DNA from: a virus
IMG/VR virus record: IMGVR_UViG_3300012096_000011
Location: 1-39,656 of that record
Direction: 5' to 3' (one strand)
Length of the DNA stretch: 39,656 nucleotides
Shown piece by piece: positions 33,429 through 38,409 of the stretch. The notes beneath the pieces are model-generated. The model was not told where the DNA came from. It was given only the letters and a program-made list of their open reading frames with translations, and did not search any database. Both the position numbers and the translations under genes were made by a program. Numbering within the stretch: position 1 is the stretch's first letter; the number at the start of each line of letters is the position of its first letter.

Positions 33429-33685
33429 GTGATCACCGAGAATACAATAATCGTTGGCATCTTGATAAGAGGGTTCCTATAGCTCTGATTACAGCCATGA
33501 CGATTCAGATTGTAATCTTTGCCTATTGGGTTGGAGGGTTTAATAATCGTGTTGAGCAGCTAGAAAAGCAAATGATATTGATGGTTCCACAAGGCGAGAA
33601 GATTATTCGACTCGAGACTAAGGTGGACGAAATTCATAACTCCGTGAACGAAATCAAATCTTGGGTTAGGCCAAAAGGGCCTTAA
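33425..33685 (+). CDS. Small membrane-anchored coiled-coil protein (86 aa)
   Basis: One membrane segment at ~20-38 (IALITAMTIQIVIFAYWVGG) after a charged head, then a coiled coil (NNRVEQLEKQMILMVPQGEK; RLETKVDEIHNSVNEIKSWV). This layout fits an inner-membrane spanin or a type III holin-like protein; which one cannot be decided. It is the last rightward gene and meets the minus-strand helicase tail to tail with a 20 bp overlap and a weak AGGCC/GGCCT hairpin (33668-33682). Confidence 0.65.
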   Translation: MSDHREYNNRWHLDKRVPIALITAMTIQIVIFAYWVGGFNNRVEQLEKQMILMVPQGEKIIRLETKVDEIHNSVNEIKSWVRPKGP

Positions 33686-34886
33686 AGTATCGCAGGCCCT
33701 GTCGATCGACCTTGCTTACCTTAATCATTCCCGAACTCATCATCAAATCCAACGTTTTGCTAACCACATGAACCGGGAGTCGTTCGCAGGCGAACCGAAC
33801 AACTTTGGTTTCATTTGGTTCATCCTTTTCCCTAATGAAGTGTGCAATTTCGTCCATTGCTCTTGAATCGAGGTTAACCCTCGCGGCAAAGATGTAAGGC
33901 ATTTGGCTCTCGGCTTGGGTCAGCCAAGCGAAAGCCCGGTTGAAATCCTGAATAGTGATCCTTAAAGTGTCTCCCCGATCAGCCGAAGAGACCATAGATA
34001 GCTTCAACACGTGGGCCAAACGCCTAGAGTTATAGTGCTGGAGCTTGGGATGGTTTGGGACTGGGCGAAGCCCCCCAGATCTCCAAGCATTGATCTGATT
34101 TCGATACTCTTCATCGATCTCGAACTGGCCCTTGAGGGCGTAGATGGCAGTTAGGTCATGCATTAGATCGTTGCTTGAGTCCTTCACTGGGATATTGAAC
34201 AGGTCCTCCTGGAATGGTCGATCGTCAGCAAAGATCATGATTGTTCTGGACATAAAGCCTTGATCCCAAGCTCCACTAGGGAGTAGATCATGGAGATGGG
34301 AGGTAGTGTCTCCAGCCAAGATGGAAAGCTGAGGATTAGGAATAGAGATACTAATTCCCGCTCCTCTTCTAGTTTGGCTGTAAGGAACTGTAACGTCGTA
34401 GAAAGTAGTAAGATTTGCAACAAGTGCATTGTCATAGTCATTGAGTAAGGCTCCTAGTTCATCCGGGAGAAGAAGCATTGAGTTGTACTCAATCGGCGGC
34501 TCGGGATGGAGGATTATTCTCTTGTTCGCGGCAGCGAGGGCATCTACGAGCGAAGCTCCAGTTGTACTCGTTGGGGCAATCTTGAACTCTGGTAGCTTCC
34601 GCAAGAAACGTCCAGCAGCCTTTATGGTGTTTGACTTTCCAATCCCAGGTGGTCCCACAAGAAAGACATAGAGATTGGGAAACAACGGTGAACTTGTCAC
34701 CATAAAGCATCGCTGCTCTAGCACACTCGCTATCGTCACTATCCCTGCCCATGTGCGATAAATCTCCGACGTCTCGATGTTGTCTGTCCACTCAACGAAG
34801 GACTCGATCCAAGAGCGGCACTTCCTCTGGGCGCTTCCGTTTGTCTTGTTCAAAATAGGATTTGAGCCCTGAGGGATTCGTGTCAC
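33666..34886 (-). CDS. P-loop helicase/primase-helicase (DUF3987-like)
   Basis: 406 residues from the GTG at 34886, which has GGAGA 5-6 bases upstream; a longer frame to ATG 34949 overlaps the polymerase more. IESFVEWTDNIETSEIYRTW and AGIVTIASVLEQRC start the domain; Walker A VGPPGIGKSNTIKAA; Walker B-like MLLLPDELGALLND; AGDTTSHLHDLLP follows. The C-terminus (RFACERLPVHVVSKTLDLMM) is a winged-helix-like tail. DUF3987-type phage proteins of this kind sit beside polymerases and are thought to unwind DNA. The start overlaps the polymerase 3' end by 95 bp. Confidence 0.7.
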   Translation of the reverse strand: MTRIPQGSNPILNKTNGSAQRKCRSWIESFVEWTDNIETSEIYRTWAGIVTIASVLEQRCFMVTSSPLFPNLYVFLVGPPGIGKSNTIKAAGRFLRKLPEFKIAPTSTTGASLVDALAAANKRIILHPEPPIEYNSMLLLPDELGALLNDYDNALVANLTTFYDVTVPYSQTRRGAGISISIPNPQLSILAGDTTSHLHDLLPSGAWDQGFMSRTIMIFADDRPFQEDLFNIPVKDSSNDLMHDLTAIYALKGQFEIDEEYRNQINAWRSGGLRPVPNHPKLQHYNSRRLAHVLKLSMVSSADRGDTLRITIQDFNRAFAWLTQAESQMPYIFAARVNLDSRAMDEIAHFIREKDEPNETKVVRFACERLPVHVVSKTLDLMMSSGMIKVSKVDRQGLRYFKALLA

Positions 34887-36282
34887 TTGCTTCTCCAAAG
34901 TTCCATCCAGTTTTGCATCCGTAGGGAATGATAAGCTCGCGATTCCCAATCTGAACGGGATAATTCAATTGCTTAATGATCTTTGATACAATCTCGTCCT
35001 CCCTTTCCTCCGGGTATTGGACAACTATCGCGTCGTGGATTTGCATCAAGAGCTGGCAATCTCTTTCCTTCCAGACCTGGAGCATTCCTTGGTTAACAAT
35101 ATCAGCAAGGGAGCCCTGGGGGTCAAAGGCAATTGCCTCTCTTACGGTCTCTGGATCGTTTCGCCTACCCCAGAATTGGCGCTTTCGCCCAGTTAGATTA
35201 ATAAGAAATCCATCTTTAAGGAGCTTACTCTCTACCCATGCATGCCACCTTAAGTGGGAGGGAAAGGCTTTGAAGTAGATTGGTTGAAACTCCTCAATCA
35301 ACTCCACGTCTACTTTAGCTTGACTAGCAAGGGTTCTGGGCTTGCCGGCATAGTTGGTTCCATGACCAATCTTCTTACACATGAACCGTCGTGAATAGTG
35401 ACGGTAATATGGTTGTTCGGCCAGAGCCTTATCAAGTCTAGGATCTCCTGTCCAAAGGAGTTTGGGCCATACGAGCTTCGCCACTGTTGTATGGAGATCT
35501 CCTGACTCGCAGGCATCGAGATAACGGCTGTCATGAAAGAGAACATATTCTATTCCTCCAACCACTCTGCTCTCGCCCTGCTCTGCGTCGAAGTATCCCA
35601 TCTTCATCCCTGGGTCGGCGACTAGGACTGAGCGGAGGGCATCTTCGATATTTTGAAGGTTTCCACCAGTTCCGAACTCGGAGAGCGAAGAAGATAAGCG
35701 ACCAGTGTTAGTCCCTCCAATATTATAGGAGGTCCGAATTCGTCCGTCAGGATCAATATCGGTTTTAAGTACCGAGATCTTCTTAGCAATATCACGCATA
35801 GTCTTAATGTGTGAGATAATAGGACGAGCCACAAGGTAGGCTTCCATCTTCTCCAACGCGTTGCGGTCAACGGTAGGATTGCTTGAGCCTCGCTTGTGTA
35901 TGACCGGAATTCCAAGACGATCATAGAAAAGCTCCCTTAAATGGTCGTTGCTTCGCCAATTGAACCCGAACTGCCCAACCCCTTCGTGAACGATTCGAAC
36001 TAGGTTTCCTTCGAGTCGGTCAAGGAGATCATAGTATTGTTCCACCACTTCCGACTTACGTTGTCGGTCCACCAATACTCCTCGTAGCCGCATTTCGAGC
36101 ACTGGACCTTGTAGTGCCTTAGAGAAGGCGTACGTTTTAGCAGTGTGGCTGTCCAGTTGTGGCGACAAGATGTCGAGGAGCTCGGCGGTGATGAGGCAGT
36201 CGAGTCCATTGTAAACCCATTCCCTTTCCATCGGCTTGAGGCGATCAGGAGTCATTTTGTTGGTTTGGGTTATCTTAGCCAT
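34792..36282 (-). CDS. DNA polymerase, family A: C-terminal polymerase part
   Basis: 496 residues from MAKITQTNKM at 36282. It begins just before the ExoIII motif EREWVYNGLDC (~residues 19-29), so it carries only the end of the 3'-5' exonuclease. The polymerase domain is complete: motif A MGYFDAEQGESRVV (catalytic Asp), motif B RRFMCKKIGHGTNYAG, motif C LMQIHDAIVVQYPEE (HD). The N-terminal remainder is encoded by 36481-37500 in the same frame, with a 68-codon gene and several stops between. It would act as the replicative polymerase, presumably assembling with the exonuclease subunit. Confidence 0.85.
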   Translation of the reverse strand: MAKITQTNKMTPDRLKPMEREWVYNGLDCLITAELLDILSPQLDSHTAKTYAFSKALQGPVLEMRLRGVLVDRQRKSEVVEQYYDLLDRLEGNLVRIVHEGVGQFGFNWRSNDHLRELFYDRLGIPVIHKRGSSNPTVDRNALEKMEAYLVARPIISHIKTMRDIAKKISVLKTDIDPDGRIRTSYNIGGTNTGRLSSSLSEFGTGGNLQNIEDALRSVLVADPGMKMGYFDAEQGESRVVGGIEYVLFHDSRYLDACESGDLHTTVAKLVWPKLLWTGDPRLDKALAEQPYYRHYSRRFMCKKIGHGTNYAGKPRTLASQAKVDVELIEEFQPIYFKAFPSHLRWHAWVESKLLKDGFLINLTGRKRQFWGRRNDPETVREAIAFDPQGSLADIVNQGMLQVWKERDCQLLMQIHDAIVVQYPEEREDEIVSKIIKQLNYPVQIGNRELIIPYGCKTGWNFGEASDTNPSGLKSYFEQDKRKRPEEVPLLDRVLR

Positions 36283-36481
36283 ATTGATTTTCTGATATTT
36301 CCAATTCATCGCGAATTTCAGCTGCTGTCATATCATCAGGGAGTTCGCGTACAACGGCGTAGACTATTTGTCGTATAGTATCAGGTGAGTGGTATCTGAC
36401 TCTAGGCTTGTTTAACGAGGATAAACCAACACTTTTACATGAACAAGCTGACTCTATTGCCTCTTTCAGGTTTTGATTCAT
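36275..36481 (-). CDS. 68-aa ORF inserted in the DNA polymerase
   Basis: MNQNLKEAIESACSCKSVGL... with C-terminal SPDTIRQIVYAVVRELPDDM and TAAEIRDELEISENQYG. Starts inside the stop of the exonuclease part (TAATG) and overlaps the start of the polymerase part by 8 bp. AT-rich like the two LAGLIDADG genes. The C-terminal half may form a helix-turn-helix. No endonuclease motif is visible; it could be the remnant or accessory part of a mobile element. The insertion is a multiple of three. Confidence 0.55.
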   Translation of the reverse strand: MNQNLKEAIESACSCKSVGLSSLNKPRVRYHSPDTIRQIVYAVVRELPDDMTAAEIRDELEISENQYG

Positions 36482-37500
36482 TAGTCATCCCTCTTTATCG
36501 TCCTCTTACCCCTGCTCCGCATATCCTTCCAACTTCCCTCGTCGCAATAAACACTTCCCAAAAACCCCAATCCCTTGAGGCTTTCGGGCTGAAGGGAATA
36601 GTGGAGGAGCATCGTATCCTCACTTGCGTTAGCTACTTTGATTCCGTATCCCCGATAGAGGAAGGAGACATCGTAGAGTCCATTTTGGAATAGCTTTGGC
36701 AAAAGCGGATTACTGCAAGTGTTTGCAATATAGTTCCACACACTTCTTTCAAGCTCATGAGTTGGCCAATAATTTTTTCCAAGCTTTTTGGGGTCAAAGA
36801 ATGGGATAACAATTGCACGTCTTGGGCTAGGAGCAAATCCAATGCACGTAATTCCTCGTCCTGCCGTTTCAATATCAACGCTAAGGATTCGACAGCCTTC
36901 GATGTATCGCTTGTGGAACGCATAAATATCCTCCAAGGTTGGCTCGATCCAGACCTCGCGAAACGGGCGGCGGATTTCTGGGAAAGCGGATTCTCGTTTG
37001 GCTTTTACAAGGTCAATGACTCCAATGGGTCGCAGGTCCCACTGGCGTAGTATTGCAGCAGGATGGTAGGTCGGTAAACACTTGAACCCGGACGCACAAT
37101 GAGTTGACAAAGTTGTAGTTCCTCGAAACTTGGATATAGTCGTTCGACCAGTAAGCGCCCACAGCGCAGTGTTGCCCAGCGCAACAACCAGGTTGGGATT
37201 AACTTCGAGAAGCTCATTGCTCAATCTCTCAAGTTCTGGGGCAAACTCTGCCCGAATATATAGCCCTTTTCCAAGAGCCGGATAGCCAGGGATAGCTTGC
37301 GATTTAGGTCCGCATAAAGTTTCGATCTTGTTTCCTTTGGGGCGGAGATTGAACACATTGGTGATGTAAGTGTCCGCTCGATGAATGCCAGCTTCGCCCA
37401 GCATTTTTGTAAGTTCGTATCCAGCTGATCCGGAGAATGGGATTCGGGTTCGTTCTTCTTCTTCGCCATAACTTTCTCCAACTAAGACAATGTTGGTCAT
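36481..37500 (-). CDS. DNA polymerase N-terminal part: UDG-like domain plus 3'-5' exonuclease
   Basis: 339 residues. Residues 1-~185 are a uracil-DNA-glycosylase superfamily domain: LVGESYGEEEERTRIPFSGS, VALGNTALWALTG and TYHPAAILR (the HPxxxLR motif). Residues ~200-325 are the DNA polymerase I-type exonuclease: ExoI ILSVDIETAG, ExoII LFQNGLYDVSFL, then EDTMLLHYSLQPESLKGL. The ExoIII motif is missing here and lies in the next polymerase ORF. The UDG-plus-PolA order is that of SPO1-type polymerases, normally one chain. The ATG follows GGGGA, which may be sequestered by a hairpin. Confidence 0.85.
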   Translation of the reverse strand: MTNIVLVGESYGEEEERTRIPFSGSAGYELTKMLGEAGIHRADTYITNVFNLRPKGNKIETLCGPKSQAIPGYPALGKGLYIRAEFAPELERLSNELLEVNPNLVVALGNTALWALTGRTTISKFRGTTTLSTHCASGFKCLPTYHPAAILRQWDLRPIGVIDLVKAKRESAFPEIRRPFREVWIEPTLEDIYAFHKRYIEGCRILSVDIETAGRGITCIGFAPSPRRAIVIPFFDPKKLGKNYWPTHELERSVWNYIANTCSNPLLPKLFQNGLYDVSFLYRGYGIKVANASEDTMLLHYSLQPESLKGLGFLGSVYCDEGSWKDMRSRGKRTIKRDD

Positions 37501-37504
37501 GCTT

Positions 37505-37541
37505 TCCCCAAACGAAAAGGGGAGGAGCCTTCGCCCCTCCC
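37505..37541 (-). terminator. Intrinsic terminator with an overlapping alternative hairpin (attenuator-like)
   Basis: On the minus strand GGGAGG (37541-37536) pairs with CCTCCC (37525-37520) around a short GC-capped loop, followed by TTTTCGTTT. An alternative stem pairs TCCCC (37523-37519) with GGGGA (37509-37505), the ribosome site of 36481-37500. The two stems share bases and exclude each other. This can act as a terminator or as a switch on polymerase synthesis. Confidence 0.6.
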
Positions 37542-37549
37542 TGATTTAT

Positions 37550-37888
37550 TTAGACCAATACCCCAGCCCAAGCATCGCCTATGGGTATAATGAGAGGCAT
37601 AGTCCAATATACCTGCTTACCCTTCATCCTAGCCCAACGGATTTCGTTGGTTGTGGACTGACCGTAATAGCCATCTTCGTTTAGCACGACGATTCCATCT
37701 GAGTTGTCGATCTTAGCGAAGTGGATCTGGTCGAGGATTGTCTTCTGCTCCTCGGTAAGGCCATTACCCTCCTCTAATGAGTTATATACAGCTAAGCCGT
37801 ATACGACATGGCCAGCTAGACCCAGCTTCGTGCTCCACTCATGAAAGCGGGGCTCGAACTTGCGACTGCCGCAAAGAGTTAGTCTCAT
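37550..37888 (-). CDS. Nucleoside 2-deoxyribosyltransferase-like protein
   Basis: 112 residues from MRLTLCGSRKFEPRFHEWST; the ATG at 37888 has GGAGG upstream, whereas an earlier ATG lacks one. The fold pattern LCGSRKF ... KIDNSDGIVVLNEDGYYGQS ... TTNEIRWARMKGKQVYW matches the deoxyribosyltransferase/DUF4406-like superfamily, with DSDGxVVxN and the GxSTxxEIxWA helix. Such proteins act on nucleosides or bind nucleotides; the true substrate is unknown. A terminator-like hairpin follows. Confidence 0.65.
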   Translation of the reverse strand: MRLTLCGSRKFEPRFHEWSTKLGLAGHVVYGLAVYNSLEEGNGLTEEQKTILDQIHFAKIDNSDGIVVLNEDGYYGQSTTNEIRWARMKGKQVYWTMPLIIPIGDAWAGVLV

Positions 37889-37890
37889 TT

Positions 37891-37971
37891 CTACCTCCAT
37901 TTGGCCAAAAGCCAAGGCAATAATCCCATCATTGCGATGACCAATAGCATTATGACTAGTTCCCAGGGCAT
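37891..37971 (-). CDS. Tiny single-pass membrane protein (26 aa)
   Basis: MPWELVIMLLVIAMMGLLPW then LLAKWR: one hydrophobic helix with a basic C-terminal end. GGAGAG lies 5-6 bases upstream. It fills the gap between the ssDNA-binding-like and deoxyribosyltransferase-like genes. Function unknown. Confidence 0.5.
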   Translation of the reverse strand: MPWELVIMLLVIAMMGLLPWLLAKWR

Positions 37972-37974
37972 TGG

Positions 37975-38409
37975 CTACTCTCCAACCTTTGCAGTTCCAC
38001 CAATCTCTCCAAAGATTGACTGCCCATCCTCGCTGGCCCGATGCTTGATCGTTGCGAGGACGCTTGAGCCGGGAGCTTCATCGATCATCTGGCGTAAGGT
38101 TTGGGATTCATCAATCCCAAGATCGACGAGGAACTTCTTCAAGCGCCAAGCGGCGTCTTCGGTGAGATAGAATGTGGCTTTAATGGCCCGGGAGGCAAAT
38201 CCTCCCATCTCATCCAAAGCCTCTTGATCCACGTCGTCAAGGGTTCCGGTTGGTTGAAGGGTAAACTCGACGAAGTCGGTTTGTTTCTTGGAGGATTTGT
38301 CGAACCTTGGAAGGCCCTTGACGACGCATTCGTAGGTTCCGGTTGGTAGGGGCTTGGGACGTTCGATTTCTGAGGATTGCCGGTCGAGAATATCTTGAAA
38401 AGATGCCAT
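37975..38409 (-). CDS. Probable ssDNA-binding protein (144 aa)
   Basis: MASFQDILDRQSSEIERPKP then LPTGTYECVVKGLPRFDKSS, a beta-rich core (QTDFVEFTLQPTG; RAIKATFYLTEDAAWRLKKF) and GSSVLATIKHRASEDGQSIF. This matches the small OB-like proteins (DUF669-like) that accompany Sak4-type ATPases and serve as single-strand binding partners. AAGGA precedes the ATG. The Sak4-like ATPase is two genes upstream. Confidence 0.6.
   Translation of the reverse strand: MASFQDILDRQSSEIERPKPLPTGTYECVVKGLPRFDKSSKKQTDFVEFTLQPTGTLDDVDQEALDEMGGFASRAIKATFYLTEDAAWRLKKFLVDLGIDESQTLRQMIDEAPGSSVLATIKHRASEDGQSIFGEIGGTAKVGE

Follow-up and report, generated by a model that had tools for sequence, protein, structure and literature searches.

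Whether a viral replicase gene that is divided between two open reading frames (ORFs), with a small third ORF lying between them, has recently been cut by that small ORF, is rejoined by splicing, is decaying, or encodes a working enzyme of two chains is the question raised by this locus. The locus was analysed in the window, i.e., the whole stretch of 39,656 nucleotides of the IMG/VR record IMGVR_UViG_3300012096_000011. The window virus resembles a short-tailed phage, with terminase, head-tail adaptor and T7-like tail proteins, and its polymerase genes are accompanied by primase, SSB-like and Sak4-like genes.

The reading that we favour, with a probability of about 0.85, is that one old fission gave rise to a two-chain replicase with a shared proofreading site and that the break later became a gene slot. 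A single gene fission would have cut a family A replicase of the UDG-PolA type between the motifs ExoII and ExoIII, and both genes would have remained in one operon and been translated in succession. UDG, ExoI and ExoII lie on the N chain, ExoIII and the polymerase on the C chain, and the two chains would most likely form a single enzyme with a 3'-5' exonuclease site to which both contribute residues. The break point would then have served as a gene boundary, which homing-type nucleases and small phage genes may enter and leave without touching the chains; the 68-codon ORF would simply be its current occupant in the window.

Organisation of the polymerase locus

The coordinates of the two chains, the ORF between them and the adjacent gene are given in Table 1. 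The N chain matched the Pfam UDG family with E = 1.9e-21, which places a domain of the UDG superfamily before the exonuclease, while the match of its residues 205-319 to DNA_pol_A_exo1 was weak (E = 5.5e-4, below Pfam's curated cut-off). The C chain matched Pfam DNA_pol_A with E = 4.4e-32. In the comparison with PHROG 17 (DNA polymerase), the N chain covered positions 481-799 (E = 2.2e-22) and the C chain positions 808-1239 (E = 3.9e-46); as these ranges follow one another, the chains are consecutive parts of one protein. Both the PHROG 17 positions and the alignments to fused relatives showed that the two ORFs jointly cover a single-chain relative, and ExoI, ExoII, ExoIII and the polymerase motifs A, B and C are all present on the two polypeptides.

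According to the family HMM alignment, the break maps to approximately residue 474-476 of E. coli Pol I, between ExoII and ExoIII, where the flanking E. coli residues are presumably Asp424 before it and Tyr497/Asp501 after it. The E. coli numbering was derived from this alignment by equating Y173 of the chain with Tyr497. The ORF between the chains shares one base with the stop codon of the N chain (TAATG) and overlaps the start of the C chain by 8 bp. The C ORF has a second in-frame ATG at 36309, and the homologues favour the start at 36282. The initial annotation had assigned UDG, ExoI and ExoII to one ORF and ExoIII with the polymerase to the other, with the small ORF coupled to both, and these assignments were reproduced in coordinates, domains and coupling.

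Table 1. Features of the divided polymerase gene and the adjacent gene in the window.
Feature	Position	Strand	Description
N chain, 339 aa	36481..37500	(-)	UDG-like domain (residues 2-155) and first part of 3'-5' exonuclease
ExoI D209, E211 and ExoII N273, D277	on N chain 36481..37500	(-)	
Exonuclease part of N chain, residues 205-319	36544..36888	(-)	weak Pfam DNA_pol_A_exo1; HMM alignment to E. coli Pol I
C-terminal tail of N chain, TIKRDD, conserved	36484..36501	(-)	codons AAG AGG at 36490-36495
Insert ORF, 68 aa	36275..36481	(-)	weak HTH-like match; close homologue only in identical contig L006
C chain, 496 aa	34792..36282	(-)	head of ~23 residues, ExoIII (Y24, D28), whole family A polymerase domain (residues 93-440)
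ExoIII motif YNGLD, near C-chain start	36199..36213	(-)	
DNA primase/helicase-like ORF, next in operon	33666..34949	(-)	start uncertain; overlaps C-chain end

Distribution of the break

Loci were collected from IMG/VR contigs, GTDB contigs and named phages using scan patterns that lie off the junction and therefore should not favour split loci. At least 286 loci were obtained, with the best 80 kept in each of two viral scans, and a script sorted 286 of them into 190 split loci, 10 fused loci and 86 for which only one half was detected. One of the 190 split loci, that of Vibrio phage VS-ABTNL-3, has a different break point. Hence, the break at the window's position is present in 189 of the 286 loci listed, a fused single ORF in 10 and a break elsewhere in one. 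Among the matches listed, fused loci reach at most about 36% identity to the window in either half, and the C half of every split locus reaches at least that figure; since identity to the window separates both groups at this value, the split or fused state follows relatedness.

The same break was found in the cultured podovirus Caulobacter phage Kuura, which has two ORFs in the gap and whose record names the N part a hypothetical protein and the C part a DNA polymerase. In the sections of the Kuura paper that were consulted, the assembly is described as verified by restriction digest and the split is not mentioned (PMC9959647). The break is not a chance feature of this contig, nor has the 68-codon ORF freshly cut the gene. 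Recent disruption by this ORF in one virus only, or an assembly error, would agree with the common frame of the halves when the window is taken alone, but with the same break in 189 loci listed and in the digest-checked genome of Kuura such an origin has practically no probability left.

Junctions between the halves and their inserts

Identical junctions were removed, which left 142 sequence-distinct junctions, still including near-copies such as those of L038, L039 and L040. They range from a 4-bp overlap to a 1221-bp gap: the halves overlap or abut in 38 junctions and are separated by 1-30 bp in nine, by 31-100 bp in one, by 101-300 bp in 37 and by longer stretches, up to 1221 bp, in 57. In other words, the halves overlap, abut or lie at most 30 bp apart in 47/142 junctions, and an insert of 100-1221 bp is present in 94/142. 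Relative to the stop of the N chain, the start of the C chain is distributed over the three frames as 60/41/41, and this spread excludes splicing, inteins and read-through as a general explanation. The common frame of the halves pointed out in the initial annotation is real in the window, but it is a coincidence.

Where the gap is 60 bp or longer, an ORF of at least 40 aa on the same strand was found in 91 of 95 junctions. The 118 insert ORFs formed 86 unrelated BLAST clusters, the biggest with seven members. Pfam identified HNH_3 in 12 of them, DUF7768 in three and DUF3102 in two, and, in single ORFs, among others, endonuclease VII, GIY-YIG, LAGLIDADG_3, deoxynucleotide monophosphate kinase and the T7 gp5.9 RecBCD inhibitor; PHROGs agreed with Pfam on HNH. 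The cargo of the relatives' junctions includes a likely dNMP kinase, a T7 gp5.9-like RecBCD inhibitor and nucleoside deoxyribosyltransferase-like proteins. The only Pfam match of the window's 68-aa ORF was a weak one to HTH_20 (E = 0.009), and tblastn in the first 100 loci gave no match to it except in the identical contig L006. The chains of locus L007 are 95-96% identical to those of the window (dS near 0.29), yet a different ORF of 72 aa lies at its junction and the reading frame of its halves differs from the window's. The proposal that the polymerase was split by the small inserted gene had to be abandoned, as the break is older: it is common to the clade, 47 junctions have no insert and L007 carries another ORF.

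More than 100 bp separate the N and C genes in 77/120 loci, and a large insert at the C/primase junction was counted from the list in 6/120 (a script threshold set by an outlying minimum gave 12). At the upstream SSB/N junction (window 37501-37974), more than 100 nt are present in 81/114 loci. The N/C junction was also considered as a unique hotspot, which was not upheld, the SSB/N junction being equally variable; for the same reason, the operon has several exchangeable gene slots.

The insert families bear on how the first break was made. We assign somewhat less than an even chance to an origin in which the two chains exist as described but a homing endonuclease insertion caused the first break and was later lost or replaced. 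The HNH_3 matches, together with the GIY-YIG, LAGLIDADG_3 and endonuclease VII ORFs, one each, speak for it, as do the precedents from T4-like phages in the consulted sections of PMC2988022. However, no insert common to the whole clade appeared among the matches listed, and, given that the upstream junction varies just as much, the nucleases are equally well accounted for if they entered a boundary that already existed.

Phylogeny and history of the split

The tree comprised 58 rows, which were chosen by identity steps from the 142 junctions together with fused relatives; L152 was excluded, as was L277, a doubtful fused locus. It was built by a quick method with SH-aLRT support and has long branches for several rows outside the split clade. 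All 48 split rows formed one clade (SH-aLRT 99), near the base of which Kuura branches, and nine fused rows and the one broken elsewhere fell outside. Relatives with an intact gene, which the initial annotation had recommended looking for, thus exist among the loci listed (10/286), and every fused row of the tree lies outside the split clade.

Supported sister pairs differ by a whole insert, namely L185 (330 bp) and L097 (0), L023 (345) and L037 (-1), L192 (139) and L174 (0), and L094 (335) and L125 (-1). As such well-supported sisters differ in this way, inserts come and go at a pre-existing break.

It had also been suggested that a short linker might be missing at the break, but nothing is missing. 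From the conserved Trp after ExoII to the Tyr of ExoIII there are 17-18 residues in the fused L002 and L003 and 38 in the window's two chains together; given this surplus, the tail of the N chain and the head of the C chain represent added sequence, or longer segments that were retained, rather than losses.

Conservation, selection and translation of the two chains

Among the 142 loci, the exonuclease residues were invariant wherever the letter was present: the D and the E of ExoI in 139/139 each, the D of ExoII in 142/142, and the Y and the D of ExoIII in 141/141. The motif A Asp (D232) was found in 132/132 loci and the His-Asp of motif C in 123/123, so the earlier statement that both halves keep all catalytic residues holds across the loci with a letter there. 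Alignment A4 contained 106 rows, the C rows of L013, L145 and L146 having been dropped for stops in the matched range. For the computable pairs out of 15 run, some of which had no usable dS, dN/dS (NG86) was 0.05-0.19 in the N chain and 0.04-0.16 in the C chain. Judged from these ratios, both chains are under purifying selection. The N and C distances were correlated with r = 0.78 over 100 loci (highest of 500 permutations 0.20), as genes of the same operon would be anyway.

These data weigh against decay, in which the N chain alone would be a uracil-DNA glycosylase and the C chain an exonuclease-deficient polymerase. The UDG domain is indeed complete on the N chain and the polymerase domain on the C chain, but an unused exonuclease would lose its catalytic residues, and these are invariant throughout the clade in both chains, with both parts under purifying selection; decay is therefore unlikely.

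The N chain of split loci ends in the conserved motif TIKRDD, followed by the stop codon. The codons of this motif are biased: AAG was used 103 times and AAA 23 times, and AGG made up 57 of 113 Arg codons, compared with 9% in the background. In the window, AAG AGG resembles a Shine-Dalgarno sequence and lies 8 nt upstream of the following start codon. Predicted pairing with the 16S end was stronger than at random places in the N gene, which served as controls (median -2.4): the median was -6.3 before the first insert ORF and -4.8 where a C start follows at a direct junction. The TIKRDD tail thus probably doubles as a ribosome site for whichever gene follows, and such a site in the N tail fits the translation of separate chains.

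The polymerase gene of SPO1 is interrupted by an intron. Group I introns are carried by SPO1-type polymerase genes (as cited in PMC2988022). Together with the occurrence of ORFs of 60-odd codons in introns, this could suggest that the halves are separated by a self-splicing group I intron or an intein and that one chain is made. However, Rfam gave no intron family in window 34500-38000 even at E up to 10 and no intron at the gathering level in 16 relatives with inserts; in 38/142 junctions, which overlap or abut, a stop and a start codon separate the halves, the frames differ in two thirds, and the N tail ends in its conserved motif and stop with the putative ribosome site. From the frames, the overlaps and Rfam, a group I intron, an intein, read-through and frameshift were all ruled out, and splicing into one chain is highly improbable. 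An intron, an assembly error and relatives in which the parts are unrelated enzymes were looked for, as the initial annotation had advised, and none was found; its suggestion that the enzyme probably works as two chains remains the most likely one.

Predicted structure

Locus L038, which is about 64-65% identical to the window and has adjacent stop and start codons, was read across the stop as one residue and modelled using AlphaFold with 105 relatives. The joined model is a single Klenow-like enzyme and reached pLDDT 90.7 and pTM 0.86, with the junction at residue 338 and the C head forming a short strand at 340-343. Residues 178-812, which span the junction, aligned to Pol I large fragments with Z 28-32 (1xwl: 541 residues, Z 30.0, rmsd 3.6; 6vdd: 538 residues, Z 31.6). 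In the model, both sides of the junction fall in one exonuclease fold, and this indicates compatibility only and not association, because a single residue linked the chains and PolA structures are well known to the predictor.

Comparison with known split replicases

The single-chain UDG-PolA proteins (SPO1 gp31; Microcystis phage Mel-JY34; MW202489) have the same domain order and motifs as the window's chains but in one ORF. Phage replicases in two adjacent ORFs are known from T4-like phages, whose gp43A and gp43B co-purify and have polymerase activity; in Aeromonas phages 25 and 44RR, a seg endonuclease lies in one gap of the split gene 43 and an untranslated stretch in the other, and the endonuclease may have entered an already split gene (PMC2988022, sections consulted). 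That enzyme is of family B, with another break position and in few phages, whereas the clade described here has a family A enzyme, a break inside the exonuclease site that is fixed over a large clade, and 86 insert clusters. The OM43 phages MEP401 and MEP402 likewise encode a family A polymerase on two ORFs, between which lies a small uncharacterised ORF; this split is present in most of their group and its authors left splicing open, but the break lies inside the polymerase domain and each exonuclease stays whole (PMC10580990, sections consulted). In phage Aeh1, the homing endonuclease gene mobE stands between parts of a still-working enzyme, but that enzyme is a ribonucleotide reductase (nrdA) and a single insertion is tied to the break (PMC2988022, in part). 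In Lactobacillus phages Semele and Iacchus, an uncharacterised protein divides an SPO1-like polymerase gene; in the consulted text, the gene may hold an intron or intein and the break position is not stated (PMC6669764).

Split phage replicases are thus already known, and the initial annotation was right about the rarity of this case only in part: on the consulted sections of these papers (PMC2988022, PMC10580990, PMC6669764), such splits are less unusual than it supposed, but no replicase broken at this place was found among those described. What is new is that the break cuts the exonuclease site and is fixed throughout the clade. In the full-text literature searched, which omits most subscription papers, no family A polymerase was described as broken between ExoII and ExoIII.

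A two-chain replicase of this kind would be a natural clade-wide case in which two separately encoded chains of the replicase itself share an active site. For studies of communication between polymerase and proofreading sites it would offer natural split points, and for the way in which a broken gene becomes a gene slot it would offer a dated series of loci that have an insert, lack one or have a different one. The split might even be used, with the C chain on its own serving as a fast or strand-displacing polymerase that lacks the exonuclease, and with the supply of N chain tuning how large a share of replication is proofread, although we regard this as unlikely; if true, the N level would be set by translation through the interposed gene and each insert would reset the viral mutation rate. 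Since the N part may be annotated as a hypothetical protein, as in Kuura, polymerase surveys misread such phages as lacking proofreading and the UDG part.

Other observations on the polymerase genes

The polymerase of Vibrio phage VS-ABTNL-3 (L004, 4956-8090) is broken just after NLQN near motif A, with an ORF of 184 aa without a family match in the gap, and this break is an independent fission. In L118, L127, L145, L146 and L188, a stop ahead of the C chain's conserved LDR end suggested a second break, which was rejected, as the overlapping primase frame explains the stop. In the window, the C-chain gene overlaps the primase-like ORF at 34792-34949, and the LDR end is also primase coding sequence. 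Motif C (window 34963-36006, which holds motifs B and C) reads HDA in 104, HDS in 18 and HDG in one of 123 loci instead of HDE. The position matched to E. coli Phe762, which we take to be its E. coli number, is His in 129/129 loci, and the fused L002 and L003 share both this His and the change in motif C.
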